From NCBI GenBank assembly GCA_027049035.1, contig JALTVI010000064.1:1-64000 (forward strand): a stretch of DNA of 64,000 nucleotides, read 5' to 3'. The notes beneath the pieces are model-generated. The model saw nothing but the letters and a program-made list of their open reading frames with translations, had not been told where the DNA came from and made no database searches. This DNA comes from Sulfurovum sp. Its GTDB lineage: Bacteria > Campylobacterota > Campylobacteria > Campylobacterales > Sulfurovaceae. Each line of letters starts with the position of its first letter. Positions within the stretch are counted from its first letter, which is position 1. Below, one piece after another: positions 44,464 to 50,215 of this stretch. Made by a program: the position numbers and the translations under genes.

Positions 44464-45396
44464 GTGAGGGATACACGGACGCTCAAAGGCTTTATACTCT
44501 CGTTCCTGCTTCACCTGCTGATCTTTGCGCTCTTTTTTCTCTCTTTTGAGAAGATGAAGTTCACCCCTCCCCCGCCGCAGAGTGAGAAGAAGATTACCCT
44601 CAACCTTTCACAGTTCACCCCGCCAGCACCCAAACCTACCCCGCCAGCACCCAAACCAAAACCGCCTGTCGTACCGCCAAAACCGAAAGTACAGCCAACA
44701 CCGGAGCCTGTACCCGAAAAGCCTGTTGCAAAACCCAAACCACCTATGCCTGTGGCAAAAAAGAAGCACGTAGAGAAGAAAAAGGGGTTCGAGGTAGCCA
44801 AAGAGTCTAAAGAGGAGAACAACGTCACCAAGGTTGCAAAACAGGAAGTCAAAAAAGAGAAGCCCAAAAAGAAGTTGGTCAAAAAGAAAAAACCTGTCAG
44901 GAAAAAAGTGGCAAAGCAGCAACCATTGCCCACAAGTTTTCATCTCCCCAAGAAGCGTTCCAAAGACAAACTCGCCAATGCATTGCTTGGCGGCAAACCA
45001 AGCACACAGCGCCCTGCACACAGAGCTTCGGCACCAAGCAGCCGTACACAGAGAATGATCAACCAGCTCTATGGACGGGAGTTTTACAGCTATACAAAAA
45101 CACAGCAGCAGTTCATCAAGAATCATCTTGATGAAATTTACCGTATTACACAAAACACACTTGTTATCAACGGCTATCCTGATGTAGCCATACGTACCGG
45201 CCAGCAGGGCACCAATGTTGTCTCTTTCTATCTGCACCCCAACGGTGCCATCAGCAACCTGCGTCTGGTACGCCCTATGGGGTATGAGGCACTGGATAAA
45301 AACACTATTGCTGTCATACAAATCGCATACAAAGATTATCCGCGCCCCAAAACCAAAACAAAGATTGTGTTTTATGTGAATTATCGGCTTTATTGA
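44464..45396 (+). CDS. tonB: TonB-like energy transducer
   Basis: 310 residues starting at GTG 44464, with GAGGGA at a good distance upstream. An N-terminal membrane helix (TLKGFILSFLLHLLIFALFF) is followed by a proline-rich periplasm-spanning stretch (PPAPKPTPPAPKPKPPVVPP) and then a lysine-rich section with many KK pairs. The C-terminal domain (about 215-310) holds the TonB fold (GQQGTNVVSFYLHPNGAISN, then YEALDKNTIAVIQIA). It transmits inner membrane energy to outer membrane receptors. No exbB, exbD or receptor is nearby. It overlaps the kinase gene end by 7 bases. Confidence 0.85.
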   Translation: MRDTRTLKGFILSFLLHLLIFALFFLSFEKMKFTPPPPQSEKKITLNLSQFTPPAPKPTPPAPKPKPPVVPPKPKVQPTPEPVPEKPVAKPKPPMPVAKKKHVEKKKGFEVAKESKEENNVTKVAKQEVKKEKPKKKLVKKKKPVRKKVAKQQPLPTSFHLPKKRSKDKLANALLGGKPSTQRPAHRASAPSSRTQRMINQLYGREFYSYTKTQQQFIKNHLDEIYRITQNTLVINGYPDVAIRTGQQGTNVVSFYLHPNGAISNLRLVRPMGYEALDKNTIAVIQIAYKDYPRPKTKTKIVFYVNYRLY

Positions 45397-47366
45397 TTAT
45401 ATTTCAAAATAATTTCTTGAAGCACTTCATTTTTAATAGGCTTCAACAAAATATCTGTAACGCCTGCTTTTTTCATCTTGTTAACCGATTTCTCTTCAGA
45501 TACACCTGTCAAACTGTAGATAGGAATATCTTTCCCTTTCTCTGTTCTTCTAATAAGACGGATAGCTTCACTACCATCCATACCAGGCATCTGTTCATCA
45601 ATAAAAATAAGATCAATAGGGTTTTCGTTAAATATTTCTACTGCTTCATTTCCGTCTGCCGCACTCATAGGTACAGTGTGATATTTTTTCAACACTTCCT
45701 GCATCAATTTTCTATTAATAATATTGTCATCAGCAATAAGGACATTGAGGACTTTCTTTTCTGTGGTATCCGTTTGCTGGTTTACATTTATAGTATCTGT
45801 TTCTTTCAAAAGTCCGGCAATTGCATCAAAAAGCTTGTGTGGGAATAACGGACGATGCAGCAATACTGCTTCCCCGAAAGACTGCTTTGATTCTATAAAC
45901 ATAGACGATTCTATAATAACAAGACGTGAAGCGAACTTTTGATAACAGTGCTCGAAGTAAGAAGATTCATAGTTTTTCTCAATACACAAAAGAATGCCAT
46001 TTTCTTCTATTATGTTCAGATCATCTGATGCAATAATCTTCAAATCAATCTTCAGCTTATCGAAGTATTGTTTTATGTGCTTCAGATATTCAATATCAGT
46101 TTTGTCATCTTTCATGCAATAAATTGATGCATGCGATAACAACTCAAGTTTTTCCCGGTTGAGCAATGCAGGAGTACCCGCAATAGTATGGCAAGGTAAG
46201 ATAAGAGAAAAAGTACTTCCTTCACCTACTTTACTTTTTACCTCTAACTCGGCATCAAGCATATCTGCCAACTGCTTTGATATGGTCAAGCCAAGTCCGG
46301 TACCACCGTATTTTCCTGAAGTCATTTTAGAAGCCTGCTGAAATGGCTTGAATATTTGTTCAATAGCATCTTCTGAAATGCCTATGCCGCTATCGGTTAC
46401 ATCTATGCGTAGCTTGTCATTGGTTCTATCATACAAAAAACTTACAGCAACCGTTCCGTTTTCAGGTGTAAATTTAAGTGCATTACTAATGAAGTTGTTC
46501 AATATCTGTTTGATCCGGTAAGGGTCAGAGAGAATAATGAAGGGAATGTCTACATCATAATAAATGGTAAAATCAATTTTATTTTTTTTGGCAGTATGAT
46601 AAAACATCATAGCAGTGTTCTCAAATTCTTCCATAGGAGAAAAGTAGTGCTTGTCTAACTCAAGCTTTCCTGACTCTATCTTTGTGAAGTCCAACACATC
46701 ATTGATTAACGCAGATATCATTTCAGAACTTCGGTATGCCGCATAGATATACTCTTTTAGCGTTGTATCATTGACATCTTTGTCCAAAAGCTCTAAAAAC
46801 CCCATCACTGCACCTATGGGAGTACGGATATCATGTACCACGGAAGAAAAAAACTGATATGCCGCATTGAGTTTATATTCAAGTACCTCTGGAGATTTTT
46901 CTTCTATGCATACCAATGACTTTGTAGCCAGATCTTTCTCTTGGTCAGACTTTAAAGAGAGTATGCCAACCTGCTTCTCTATGCTCTCCAAATCTTTTTT
47001 ATAAAATATTTTTTTACTACCTGGTTGCTGATACATCATCACACAACCTAACATACATGTACCGCATGTGTCTTTATATAACGGAACAAGCGCAATATTT
47101 TCAACTTTGAATTTAAAAGGGTTGTCGATATGTTTATTGTATAGAAAACTGTTGGTCACATCATTAATGATAAGAGGCATACGGGTATTAAACGCAGTTA
47201 ATATTGCAGCATGATGAACAGAAGTTATATCCTTAATACCCATATGCTTGTTGGCATGGTAAAATCCCAACGATGCATCATTACGATATATACATGCGGC
47301 AATATCATCAGCATTACAGCTGTTTTTCAATGTATTTAATATGCCAATATCAATAATGCTTTGCAT
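45390..47366 (-). CDS. Soluble hybrid histidine kinase with GAF-like sensor and two receiver regions
   Basis: 658 residues without membrane helices. A GAF-like sensor (about 1-140) contains CGTCMLGC (Cys101, 104, 108). HisKA carries the phosphorylated His178 in VVHDIRTPIG. HATPase motifs are NNFISNALKF, DSGIGISEDAIEQIF and YGGTGLGLTIS. A degenerate receiver-like region follows (about 420-530), then a true receiver with Asp590 in IFIDEQMPGMDG and the lysine of LLKPIKNE. The design fits phosphorelay signalling. The gene begins directly after the previous stop (TAAATG) and is the last of the roadblock operon. Codon usage is AT-rich. Confidence 0.87.
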   Translation of the reverse strand: MQSIIDIGILNTLKNSCNADDIAACIYRNDASLGFYHANKHMGIKDITSVHHAAILTAFNTRMPLIINDVTNSFLYNKHIDNPFKFKVENIALVPLYKDTCGTCMLGCVMMYQQPGSKKIFYKKDLESIEKQVGILSLKSDQEKDLATKSLVCIEEKSPEVLEYKLNAAYQFFSSVVHDIRTPIGAVMGFLELLDKDVNDTTLKEYIYAAYRSSEMISALINDVLDFTKIESGKLELDKHYFSPMEEFENTAMMFYHTAKKNKIDFTIYYDVDIPFIILSDPYRIKQILNNFISNALKFTPENGTVAVSFLYDRTNDKLRIDVTDSGIGISEDAIEQIFKPFQQASKMTSGKYGGTGLGLTISKQLADMLDAELEVKSKVGEGSTFSLILPCHTIAGTPALLNREKLELLSHASIYCMKDDKTDIEYLKHIKQYFDKLKIDLKIIASDDLNIIEENGILLCIEKNYESSYFEHCYQKFASRLVIIESSMFIESKQSFGEAVLLHRPLFPHKLFDAIAGLLKETDTINVNQQTDTTEKKVLNVLIADDNIINRKLMQEVLKKYHTVPMSAADGNEAVEIFNENPIDLIFIDEQMPGMDGSEAIRLIRRTEKGKDIPIYSLTGVSEEKSVNKMKKAGVTDILLKPIKNEVLQEIILKYNQ

Positions 47367-48044
47367 TTATTTAGTCTCCTGGTTAAAAAATTCTTTTTCT
47401 ATAAATTCTTTTTCTATAATTTCTTTTGTCTCTTCATTTATCTTTATCATAGAACCGACAGGAAGATCACGTGAACTCACAATCACTAAAATACTGTCTT
47501 CAACGATTAATTTACAATAAATTTGAAATGTATCATAGACATCGATCACTGTTTGCCACTTGCCAACCAACTGATTGATATTTTTATTGTCTCTGATAAA
47601 ATCAATCATCGCAGAAATCTGCACAATCAACTCACCCGAATCGGTAAGGTTGTTTTCCCTAACGTAGTTCAAAAGGTCATTGTCTTTAAGGAGGAAACAG
47701 GCAAAAACTTCTTGATGCAGCACATTCTCACAAAACTTCTGGAAACGGATATTCTCCTCTGTCATCATTTTGTCTTCTTCTGCAGGAACGGTTTCATTGT
47801 CTTCTGTTTTCTGGAACGATTCTTCAGAAAGAGGCTCTTTTTTTTGGAGTGCCTGAAAGAAGAGGGACAAAGCTTTTTTATGAAATTTCATCAATTTTTC
47901 CTTTTTTGATTTTTTGTGCTTTATTGTTAATAGCTGTTCTTCTTTTCCATTCACTTCAAGACTAATATGCGTCACTATGGTATTTGTTTGTTTTGATGTT
48001 CTCAGATAATAGTTTTTTCCATCTACAACAATACGATCTTCCAT
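47367..48044 (-). CDS. Protein with divergent roadblock-like C-terminal domain (inferred), 225 aa
   Basis: Not recognised as a known family. Residues 1-55 form a strand-rich segment ending KHKKSKKEKLMKFHKK. An acidic linker (about 70-95) follows. The C-terminal part (about 105-215) has the order strand, helix, strand, strand, helix (VFACFLLKDN; ELIVQISAMIDFIRDN; VIDVYDTFQIYCKLIVEDS; ILVIVSSRDLPVGSMIKI). This pattern, and the closing VSSRDLPVGSMI, resemble the C-terminus of roadblock/LC7 proteins. It starts as TAATG with the preceding gene, and the kinase follows at once. The roadblock reading is inference. Confidence 0.6.
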   Translation of the reverse strand: MEDRIVVDGKNYYLRTSKQTNTIVTHISLEVNGKEEQLLTIKHKKSKKEKLMKFHKKALSLFFQALQKKEPLSEESFQKTEDNETVPAEEDKMMTEENIRFQKFCENVLHQEVFACFLLKDNDLLNYVRENNLTDSGELIVQISAMIDFIRDNKNINQLVGKWQTVIDVYDTFQIYCKLIVEDSILVIVSSRDLPVGSMIKINEETKEIIEKEFIEKEFFNQETK

Positions 48045-48397
48045 TATTCTTTTCCTTTAGAAAAAACATGCTGTTTGAGTAAAACAATTATTTTTCCCAA
48101 TGTTAAAGGTTTTTCTGAAATCAGAACAAAGCACATTTTTTCATCTACTTTTCTTAATGCCATATTGTACTCTGTCGTTTCCAGTACTGCTTGTTCTATT
48201 GTCGGATCGGTGAACAATACAAAACCTTTTTGAAGCAGTGTGTTGTACTGATGTTCTTTTGCTTCATATTTGAAAATTTTTTTCACGTACTTCCTGTTAT
48301 CAATATTGACAACATACATTGCACATATTTCTTTTATATCAGAAAAAATTTCGTCGTAACGTGTTAGCTTCTCTTGAAGAGTTTGCTTTAAACTCAT
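48044..48397 (-). CDS. Small roadblock-like protein (inferred), 117 aa
   Basis: 117 residues: an N-terminal helix (KQTLQEKLTRYDEIFSDIKE), a strand (ICAMYVVNIDNR), a helix-loop (TLLQKGFVLFTDPTIEQAVL), then strands YNMALRKVDEKMCFVLIS and a final helix TLGKIIVLLKQHVF. The end, CFVLISEKPLTLGKIIVLL, recalls the roadblock/LC7 motif found in the true family member at 48791 (MAPKGYKMGGLIVSL). The helix order is compatible but similarity is weak. The stop overlaps the next start (TAATG). It follows a strong hairpin, so its level may differ from that of the first two genes. Confidence 0.55.
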   Translation of the reverse strand: MSLKQTLQEKLTRYDEIFSDIKEICAMYVVNIDNRKYVKKIFKYEAKEHQYNTLLQKGFVLFTDPTIEQAVLETTEYNMALRKVDEKMCFVLISEKPLTLGKIIVLLKQHVFSKGKE

Positions 48398-48477
48398 AAT
48401 GACTTCTACCTGTCCTATAAATATTTTTTTAAATAAAAAGTGGTATTTTACTTAAAAAGATAAATATTTTCCTTTAA

Positions 48478-48513
48478 TAAGGTATATCGGTAATAAACTA
48501 CCGATATACCTTA
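48478..48513. terminator. 15-base perfect hairpin inside the roadblock operon
   Basis: TAAGGTATATCGGTA (48478-48492) and TACCGATATACCTTA (48499-48513) are perfect inverted repeats with a 6-base loop, between the 65-residue gene and the 117-residue gene. No T-run follows on the minus strand, so it is more likely a processing, stability or attenuating structure than a simple terminator. Confidence 0.55.
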
Positions 48514-48519
48514 CATTTA

Positions 48520-48717
48520 CTAACTCATATTGCGGATCAATCCGTTCACAAAAGAAAGAAGCTGAGGCGTAACCCCTTTCAGATCTTCATTTGTTACATC
48601 AAGTTCAGCAAGAACGCTCATGAGTTTTTTATAAAACTCTACAGGTTCAATCTCACCTTTTTTCATCTCTTCGATATACGTTAATAAATGCTCTTTAGCC
48701 ACTTTAACATCTCCCAT
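48520..48717 (-). CDS. Small helical protein, 65 aa
   Basis: The start at 48715-48717 is preferred, since AGAAGG lies eight bases upstream; two earlier ATGs in the same frame would leave that site unused. The 65 residues are helical and charged (VAKEHLLTYIEEMKKGEIEP, then VEFYKKLMSVLAELDVTNED) and end SFVNGLIRNMS. No cysteine or membrane segment. I do not recognise it. Its place between a roadblock protein and two roadblock-like proteins suggests a partner or adaptor in the same complex (inference). Confidence 0.6.
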   Translation of the reverse strand: MGDVKVAKEHLLTYIEEMKKGEIEPVEFYKKLMSVLAELDVTNEDLKGVTPQLLSFVNGLIRNMS

Positions 48718-48790
48718 GGTTTTCATCCTTCTCAAATTAAAATTGTCAATAATAATAAAAGAAAATTGGTCTCTTGCGAAACACCTTTAT

Positions 48791-49165
48791 TTAAAATGCC
48801 TGAATCTCTTTCATGAATGTTTTCAGTGAAACAATCAATCCACCCATTTTGTATCCTTTTGGTGCCATTGCAGCAAATGCAACATCTTCACCAAGGTCTT
48901 TGATAGCAATAGAGCCGTTGTCTGCGCTGATAACCATTTCACTTAGCGTACCACTTCCTGCATTTTCAAGAACACTTGTAAGTACGGAAAGGAGTGATGC
49001 AGTATCTGCTGCAATCAGGTCAGCATCTTTGTCTGACTTGAAATAACTCGCCATTTCCAAACCTTCTGCAGTCGCAATTACTGCACCGTCCAGTCCCATT
49101 TTGTCTACAAAGTTTTGAAGGAGTTCTTCACCCTCACTTGTCAGTTTACCGATATCTAAAGCCAT
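48791..49165 (-). CDS. Roadblock/LC7 domain protein
   Basis: 124 residues covering a single roadblock/LC7 domain. Helix SEGEELLQNFVDKM, strand LDGAVIATAEGLEMASYF, central helix ADLIAADTASLLSVLTSVLE, strands LSEMVISADNGSIAIKDLG and VAFAAMAPKGYKMGGLIVSL, and a final helix follow the family order. Such proteins often act as GTPase partners (MglB type) but no MglA-like GTPase is nearby. TAGGAGG precedes the ATG, and TATAAT (minus strand, 49199-49194) is a good -10 box. It is the first gene of the five-gene operon. Confidence 0.87.
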   Translation of the reverse strand: MALDIGKLTSEGEELLQNFVDKMGLDGAVIATAEGLEMASYFKSDKDADLIAADTASLLSVLTSVLENAGSGTLSEMVISADNGSIAIKDLGEDVAFAAMAPKGYKMGGLIVSLKTFMKEIQAF

Positions 49166-49257: not shown

Positions 49258-49596
49258 TTGAGTAAACCACCAGGTATGGCAGGAGTGTATGAAGTATCTC
49301 ATCCTAAGCTCATTAAATTTCTTTCAGACAACCTAATGGACGTACTGACCTTCCTGTCATTTCCCAAACCCCATCACAGGAAAATCCATTCTACCAATGT
49401 GCTTGAACGATTTAACAAGGAGGTCAAAAGAAGAACGAAAGTGGTCGGTGCTTTCCCTGGGGATAACTCTGTGCTACGCATGTTAGTGCCGCTGGCAGTG
49501 GACACCAATGCCAAGTGGGTGGATCGAAAGTATGTTTCTTGGGATAATTTGGTACAATCTGAGGAGGCTGAGGAAGAATTTACAGAAAATTTTTGA
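49258..49596 (+). pseudogene. IS256-family transposase, C-terminal remnant
   Basis: 112 residues matching only the last quarter of an IS256-type (Transposase_mut) enzyme: HPKLIKFLSDNLMDVLTFLS, then HSTNVLERFNKEVKRRTKVV and FPGDNSVLRMLVPLAV. The first DDE-containing parts are missing. AAAGTTTGACAGTTCC at 49623-49638 looks like the right terminal repeat of the same element. It cannot transpose by itself. It abuts the roadblock operon promoter on one side and an IS200-type element on the other. Confidence 0.85.
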
Positions 49597-49638
49597 CGCT
49601 ATCGTTCTACTGGTGGACTCCCAAAGTTTGACAGTTCC

Positions 49639-50215
49639 GGGAGCCCCTGTGGTATCATGGTTTTGATCCGCTCAAAGTTCAAAAGAAAAGGATGCCACAG
49701 AATGGATATTATACAACAAACCCTGAAACATAGTGTTTGGGAGTACAAGTATCATATCGTATGGATACCCAAATACAGAAAAAAGAAACTGTATGGTGAG
49801 TTAAGAAAATATTTGGGAGAGATATTCCATGAGCTTGCGAAACAAAAAGAGTGCAAGATTGAAGAAGGACACTTGATGAGTGATCATGTGCATATGCTTA
49901 TTTCAATACCACCGAAATATTCGGTAGCACAGATTGTAGGATTTATCAAAGGGAAGAGTGCAATTACAATTTCACGAACTTTCCTTGGGAGAAGAAAGAA
50001 TTTTACAGGGCAAAGCTTTTGGGTACGAGGGTATCATGTGTCTACAGTTGGCAGAGATGAAGAAAAGATACGGAAGTATATTCAACATCAAGAGCAGGAA
50101 GACAGAAGGTTGGATAAACTATCCATTGTTTTGAGTTGTCGCCTTTAGGCGGTTAAGACCGCTTTGAGCGGTTCATATTTTCATACCTCCGGCTTTGCCG
50201 GAGGTATATGACTTT
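49639..50215 (+). mobile_element. IS200/IS605-type insertion element
   Basis: It holds one tnpA gene (49702-50148) and no tnpB. The right end has the expected subterminal hairpins: GCC-TTTA-GGC (50141-50150), ACCGC-TTTGA-GCGGT (50158-50172) and a perfect 11-base stem ATACCTCCGGC-TTT-GCCGGAGGTAT (50183-50207). The left boundary is not certain; it starts just after the IS256 right end. Confidence 0.75.
49702..50148 (+). CDS. tnpA: IS200/IS605 family transposase TnpA
   Basis: 148 residues from the ATG at 49702; a longer upstream frame would lack conservation. This is a Y1 HUH single-strand transposase: the metal-binding HUH is in LMSDHVHMLISIPPKYS, and the nucleophile tyrosine in KYIQHQEQED near residue 130. 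WEYKYHIVWIPKYRKKKL at the start and GQSFWVRGYHVSTVGRDEE are family signatures. It looks intact. It acts on the hairpins at the element ends and inserts without target duplication. Confidence 0.92.
   Translation: MDIIQQTLKHSVWEYKYHIVWIPKYRKKKLYGELRKYLGEIFHELAKQKECKIEEGHLMSDHVHMLISIPPKYSVAQIVGFIKGKSAITISRTFLGRRKNFTGQSFWVRGYHVSTVGRDEEKIRKYIQHQEQEDRRLDKLSIVLSCRL

Follow-up and report, generated by a model that had tools for sequence, protein, structure and literature searches.

A five-gene cassette on the minus strand

Positions 49165 to 45390 of the window (the whole stretch of 64,000 nucleotides of Sulfurovum sp. DNA that we analysed) hold a cassette of five genes, here named g1 to g5, all encoded on the minus strand according to the open reading frame list of the window. 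These five frames had been delimited in a preliminary description of this DNA, and all are present where it placed them. The features of the locus are as follows.

48791..49165, minus strand: g1, a roadblock/LC7 protein of 124 amino acids; core member of the cassette, evolving slowly
48520..48717, minus strand: g2, a protein of about 65 amino acids, family unassigned, probably helical; neighbour of g1 in every case
48398..48519, minus strand: intergenic stem-loop region just 3' of g2, splitting g1-g2 from g3-g5
48044..48397, minus strand: g3, a predicted divergent roadblock protein of 117 amino acids
47367..48044, minus strand: g4, a protein of 225 amino acids with a predicted N-terminal beta domain and C-terminal roadblock domain
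45390..47366, minus strand: g5, a cytosolic hybrid histidine kinase of 658 amino acids

The open reading frame of g2 covers 48735-48520, and its conserved start is the ATG at 48717, which gives 65 amino acids. The genes had been described as tightly packed. This holds for g3 to g5—g3 and g4 overlap by one base, and g4 and g5 abut—but not fully for the others, because g1 and g2 are separated by approximately 55-73 bp and g2 and g3 by 122 bp containing a strong hairpin. The AT-rich composition attributed to the genes is real: their GC contents are 0.42 (g1), 0.37 (g2), 0.31 (g3), 0.33 (g4), and 0.36 (g5), compared with 0.486 for the whole window (standard deviation of 0.046 in 1-kb windows). When the genes were compared with those of two close relatives, dN/dS was at most 0.15 for all five in every comparison with estimable dS (in the pair formed by the window and L018, the dS of g3 and of g4 was saturated). 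Since this includes the unannotated g3 and g4, the five are real, constrained genes. Their highest 19-residue Kyte-Doolittle mean is at most 1.65, and hydropathy thus does not suggest a transmembrane segment.

Just upstream of g1 (window 49258-50148) lie a truncated Mutator-family (IS256-like) transposase and an IS200-like transposase. In the Sulfurovum genome G049, a transpeptidase-like gene directly adjoins the cassette in place of these transposases, and about 70 bp of the region upstream of g1 are alike in the two genomes.

The hairpin directly 3' of g2 (window 48430-48519) has a z-score of -4.97, and hairpins are strong at this site in eight of the nine loci: in the others, z ranges from -2.4 to -9.1 in seven out of eight and is -0.6 in the remaining one. 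They occupy the same place in L017-L024, L041, and L042 with sequences that are unrelated between loci. Structures kept without a common sequence suggest a conserved role for the structure itself. A terminator search at the site did not call a U-tract terminator, and the stem-loop is probably a transcript-stabilising or partly terminating element. Among eight loci, the mean identity is 69% for g1 and 75% for g2, against 31-47% for g3 to g5. Together, the hairpin after g2 and the higher conservation of g1-g2 suggest that these two proteins are produced in larger amounts than g3-g5.

The roadblock-fold proteins and the kinase

The first gene had been described as a clear roadblock/LC7 protein, and g1 indeed belongs to the Pfam family Robl_LC7 (PF03259), with an E-value of 2.7e-12 and 46.7 bits for a gathering score of 23. 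Its profile matches the PDB sequences 9jue (1.2e-10) and 3leq, the conservon protein CvnB5 (2.3e-5). Relatives of g1 on plasmids were limited to distant ones in Deinococcus. The g2 family has a conserved sequence, MGD...LLSFVNGLIRNM, for which a Pfam search returned no match; judging from this sequence, the protein is probably helical.

Above cut-off, the products of g3 and g4 match nothing in Pfam or NCBIfam, and they do not belong to Robl_LC7 by sequence, as no match to PF03259 appears up to an E-value of 10. Candidate assignments of g3 to Androglobin_IV (Pfam, 0.002) or EAF fell below cut-off and were rejected. The preliminary description had read both products as divergent roadblock proteins, and proposed structure prediction and sensitive profile comparison as checks. 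The AlphaFold (AF2) model of g3, built from an 11-sequence alignment, has a pLDDT of 88 and a pTM of 0.82, and its elements follow the order helix-strand-strand-helix-strand-strand-strand-helix (H-E-E-H-E-E-E-H). All 50 of the 50 Foldseek matches listed against the PDB are roadblock-type chains, the best being MglC of Myxococcus (7ct3, 2e-5). A second aligner (VIA) gives a Z of 11.5 with an Asgard roadblock protein, at 2.6 A across 103 residues. Based on this model, we assign g3 to the roadblock/LC7 fold.

The model of g4 (pLDDT 76.8, pTM 0.53) starts with a four-stranded beta domain at about residues 1-44, followed by helices, and ends in a roadblock domain at about residues 94-221. In Foldseek and VIA, residues ~89-221 match MglB, Ragulator, the C-terminal domains of Rag/Gtr GTPases (which are roadblock-like), and related domains of longin type, with a best structural Z of up to 11.9. 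We thus assign the C-terminus of g4 to the roadblock/LC7 fold as well, with a model of moderate confidence (pTM 0.53). Structure prediction therefore bears out the earlier reading for g3 and for the C-terminal half of g4: the AlphaFold topology is that of the fold, and the leading PDB matches, at Z of about 11-12, include MglC, MglB, LAMTOR, and the Asgard roadblock.

Profile comparison agrees with that reading only in part. It shows a weak likeness of g3 and g4 to g1 (E-value of about 0.01, probability of 4-5%) and no match to Robl_LC7; the likeness between g3 and g4 is higher (6e-5, 65%). When PDB sequences were searched with the profiles of g3 and g4, no roadblock chain came up, so that the assignment of both rests on the fold. 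They add two sequence-divergent families to the roadblock fold.

The last gene had been described as a cytosolic hybrid kinase with a GAF-like sensor, which agrees with its Pfam domains and hydropathy, even if the GAF match itself is weak (0.14, and 0.0095 in one orthologue). The protein comprises a GAF-like N-terminus, HisKA (3e-17), HATPase_c (4e-27), a probable degenerate receiver, and a receiver (Response_reg, 3e-24). The H, N, G1, and G2 boxes and the receiver lysine motif are intact in eight genomes, and these domains and motifs identify g5 as a hybrid histidine kinase. The probable degenerate receiver covers residues of about 400-535 (window 46180-45780), between HATPase_c and the true receiver; the length of this region is conserved among orthologues, and it has no Pfam match.

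The GAF-like region is missing in two related kinases. The g5 orthologue of G006 (L021:9704-11260) starts directly at HisKA in a locus where g1-g4 are all present, and the kinase of G207 likewise lacks the GAF-like N-terminus. The GAF-like domain cannot, therefore, be an obligatory contact.

Distribution and rearrangements of the cassette

We found the complete order g1-g2-g3-g4-g5 in the window genome and in G049, G069, G048, G042, G006, G023, and G246, whereas in G086 (C64) and G014 (C60) the order is kept as far as the end of the contig. At least eight Sulfurovaceae genomes thus carry g1-g5 in this order, in differing surroundings, and the survey of gene order proposed in the preliminary description shows it to be conserved outside the window genome. 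Neither outcome named there as refuting the reading, models without the roadblock/longin fold or a gene order confined to this genome, was thus obtained. The window genome, G049, and G069 have matching flanks, and those of the other loci differ, so that the cassette is the conserved unit.

The cassette is rare (9 of the 78 genomes of the genus, as judged by g2), and its distribution is patchy. Among the 347 good Campylobacterota genomes of one sample, the six with a Pfam Robl_LC7 match were exactly the six with g4, so that in this sample every Pfam roadblock protein of the phylum sits in the cassette. The presence of g2 follows that of g1 and g4: in a 397-genome sample, it matched the same six genomes, plus one by chance. 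Weak matches of the g2 and g3 profiles in G080, G317, and G358 were rejected as chance, since they lie inside sulfatase-like and RecB-like proteins. A degenerate-pattern scan of GTDB genomes for g4 found none beyond the Sulfurovum metagenome-assembled genome already known (G049), and no plasmid relatives of g4 were found.

Three genomes carry variants. In G207, which belongs to another family, the order is g1-g2-g2'-g4, g3 is missing, and a homologous kinase lies on the opposite strand. In G065 (L052:5032-11224), a duplicated g1-g2 precedes genes for a GAF protein, a large protein of 560 amino acids, and a kinase homologous to g5 (34% identity over 625 amino acids); the 560-residue protein has no Pfam match and may be a degenerate kinase. 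Besides its own cassette, G086 has a second locus (L022:7251-9194, C23) encoding a relative of g3, a roadblock-like protein with a weak LAMTOR5 match, and a GAF-receiver protein without Pfam kinase domains. Roadblock genes therefore stay with two-component proteins through rearrangements. Between genomes, the distances of g3, g4, and g5 show correlations of 0.94-0.96, while g1 and g2 correlate less well; these correlations partly reflect shared ancestry.

GTPases and the putative role of the cassette

Roadblock proteins normally help Ras-like switches and, to our knowledge, what is understood of the bacterial ones concerns almost exclusively the regulation of MglA-type GTPases. No Ras-like GTPase was found in the cassette or among its neighbours, and the locus is not an MglA/MglB system, because the few genes on either side of the roadblock gene encode no MglA-type GTPase. 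The earlier remark that no GTPase is encoded here thus holds for the locus, but not genome-wide: a scan of the window genome revealed two small Ras-like GTPases on contig C92. Their genes (L053:7751-13698 of G000, outside the window) are Group-1-Rup-like and in tandem, share a common coiled-coil and OmpA-domain protein, and are followed by a PAS-GGDEF protein in one case and by a kinase in the other. These loci match published Group 1 Rup systems (PMC4316618).

Among the closest known systems, actinobacterial conservons combine a histidine kinase with a roadblock protein and also include a GTPase (PMC13343842, PMC4316618), and their GAF accessory protein CvnF8 can boost the kinase (PMC13343842). 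The cassette shares with conservons (CvnA kinase, CvnB roadblock, CvnC, and CvnD GTPase) an operon with a histidine kinase and a roadblock protein whose profile matches CvnB5. It differs in having three roadblock domains instead of one, a soluble hybrid kinase with a receiver, no GTPase, and no recognisable CvnC (no Pfam family makes g2-g4 CvnC), and it is not a conservon. A roadblock-based input or scaffold for a phosphorelay, which the preliminary description suggested as something new, would fit the linkage; the pairing of histidine kinase and roadblock protein as such is not wholly new. In the polarity module of Myxococcus, MglC binds MglB at an interface distinct from that with MglA (PMC7949163) and also binds RomR (PMC12719032). 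This MglB/MglC/RomR module, like the cassette, combines different roadblock proteins, here two, of which one is linked to a receiver protein, and MglC is the top Foldseek match of g3; the cassette, by contrast, lacks MglA, gathers its genes in one place, and has a kinase in place of a lone receiver protein. In the eukaryotic Ragulator/LAMTOR, p18 wraps two roadblock heterodimers (PMC5680233). The likeness would be one of composition only—several divergent roadblock proteins and a small helical protein, with g2 as a putative parallel of p18—since Ragulator docks Rag GTPases at the membrane and the cassette has neither a GTPase nor a membrane anchor. The Group 1 Rup systems found elsewhere in the window genome also have kinase or GGDEF outputs, but they occupy separate loci and lack a Pfam roadblock protein. 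By analogy, the cassette resembles conservons and the MglB/MglC-RomR logic minus the GTPase, and we file it with roadblock/two-component modules.

A trio of roadblock proteins accompanies a kinase in the cassette without a Ras-like switch, which suggests a direct service of such proteins to a kinase. The best-supported reading, to which we give about even chances, is that of a dedicated signalling unit: the roadblock trio and the small helical protein would form a cytosolic platform controlling g5 with no need for a Ras-like GTPase. The narrower version, a GTPase-free platform of Ragulator-like composition that has a histidine kinase as client and regulates it directly, is somewhat doubtful. 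The analysis establishes the roadblock fold three times, for g1 from its sequence and for g3 and the C-terminus of g4 from predicted structures, as well as an intact kinase, the conserved gene order, the exact co-occurrence, and selection on the genes. Under the platform reading, g1 dimers and g2 would form the core, produced in excess of g3-g5, and g3 and g4 would act as adaptors, forming heteromers with g1 or with one another and binding g5 at its GAF-like/HisKA part. The platform would alter g5 autophosphorylation, and the receiver of g5 would pass phosphate on to a histidine phosphotransferase and a regulator encoded elsewhere. The conserved order within differing flanks, the exact co-occurrence, the kinase linkage through rearrangement, the distance correlations, and the existence of genomes without GTPase all speak for this platform; the loss of the GAF-like part in the G006 and G207 kinases, the absence of g3 in G207, and the presence of a Rup GTPase in all good cassette genomes of the genus speak against it.

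If the platform reading is correct, the cassette offers a concrete, compact, and testable partner for orphan roadblock proteins. A survey by Wuichet and Sogaard-Andersen found 421 out of 749 MglB homologues coupled to an MglA gene and left 328 ‘orphans’ without explanation (PMC4316618). Our search of the open-access literature returned no description of a cassette like this one or of roadblock proteins in Sulfurovum.

Signals could also flow in the opposite direction. The kinase would then sense by its N-terminus, and the assembly or position of a roadblock scaffold would depend on the receiver of the kinase or on its state of phosphorylation, as with RomR-MglC in Myxococcus. The cassette encodes no output regulator, g5 ends in a receiver, and MglC, the best Foldseek match of g3, binds a C-terminal helix of the response regulator RomR (PMC12719032). 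Yet g5 lacks a RomR-like helical tail, and the kinases of G006 and G207, devoid of a GAF-like sensor, would need another input. We consider this arrangement rather unlikely.

Equally improbable in our view is a service of the roadblock unit to a Rup-type GTPase in trans (as GAP, GEF, or effector platform), joining G-protein and two-component signalling. A Rup-like GTPase is present in all seven good-quality cassette genomes of the genus compared with 13 of 40 overall (hypergeometric, 9e-5, kinship ignored), and in 7 out of 9 compared with 26 out of 78 when all genus genomes are counted (0.005, kinship again ignored). Rup GTPases also have no catalytic glutamine, and no GAP is known for them (PMC4316618). 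On the other side, none of the 121 Rup GTPases surveyed is coupled to an MglB homologue (PMC4316618), six good genomes of the genus have the GTPase without the cassette, and G086, G246, and G207, which carry the cassette outside the genus and are 99-100% complete, yielded no small Ras-like GTPase. A small GTPase is therefore not a required partner of the cassette, which neither shares a locus with a Group 1 Rup GTPase nor depends on one. Genomes with the cassette that naturally lack a small Ras-like GTPase allow a clean test of GTPase-independent function.

The last explanation, an AT-rich genomic island whose roadblock genes and kinase merely travel together without functional relation, would account for the composition, the patchy distribution, and the differing sites, but it is very improbable given the strict order, the kinase retained after rearrangement in G207 and G065, the matched distances of g3-g5, and purifying selection.

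Given the co-occurrence of the Rup GTPase with the cassette within the genus, a regulatory link between the two inside Sulfurovum is possible. In G014, the gene directly upstream of a Rup-type GTPase encodes a protein with a weak Hpt-domain match (L055:71-890; 2.6e-4, below cut-off), which possibly represents a link between phosphorelay and GTPase.
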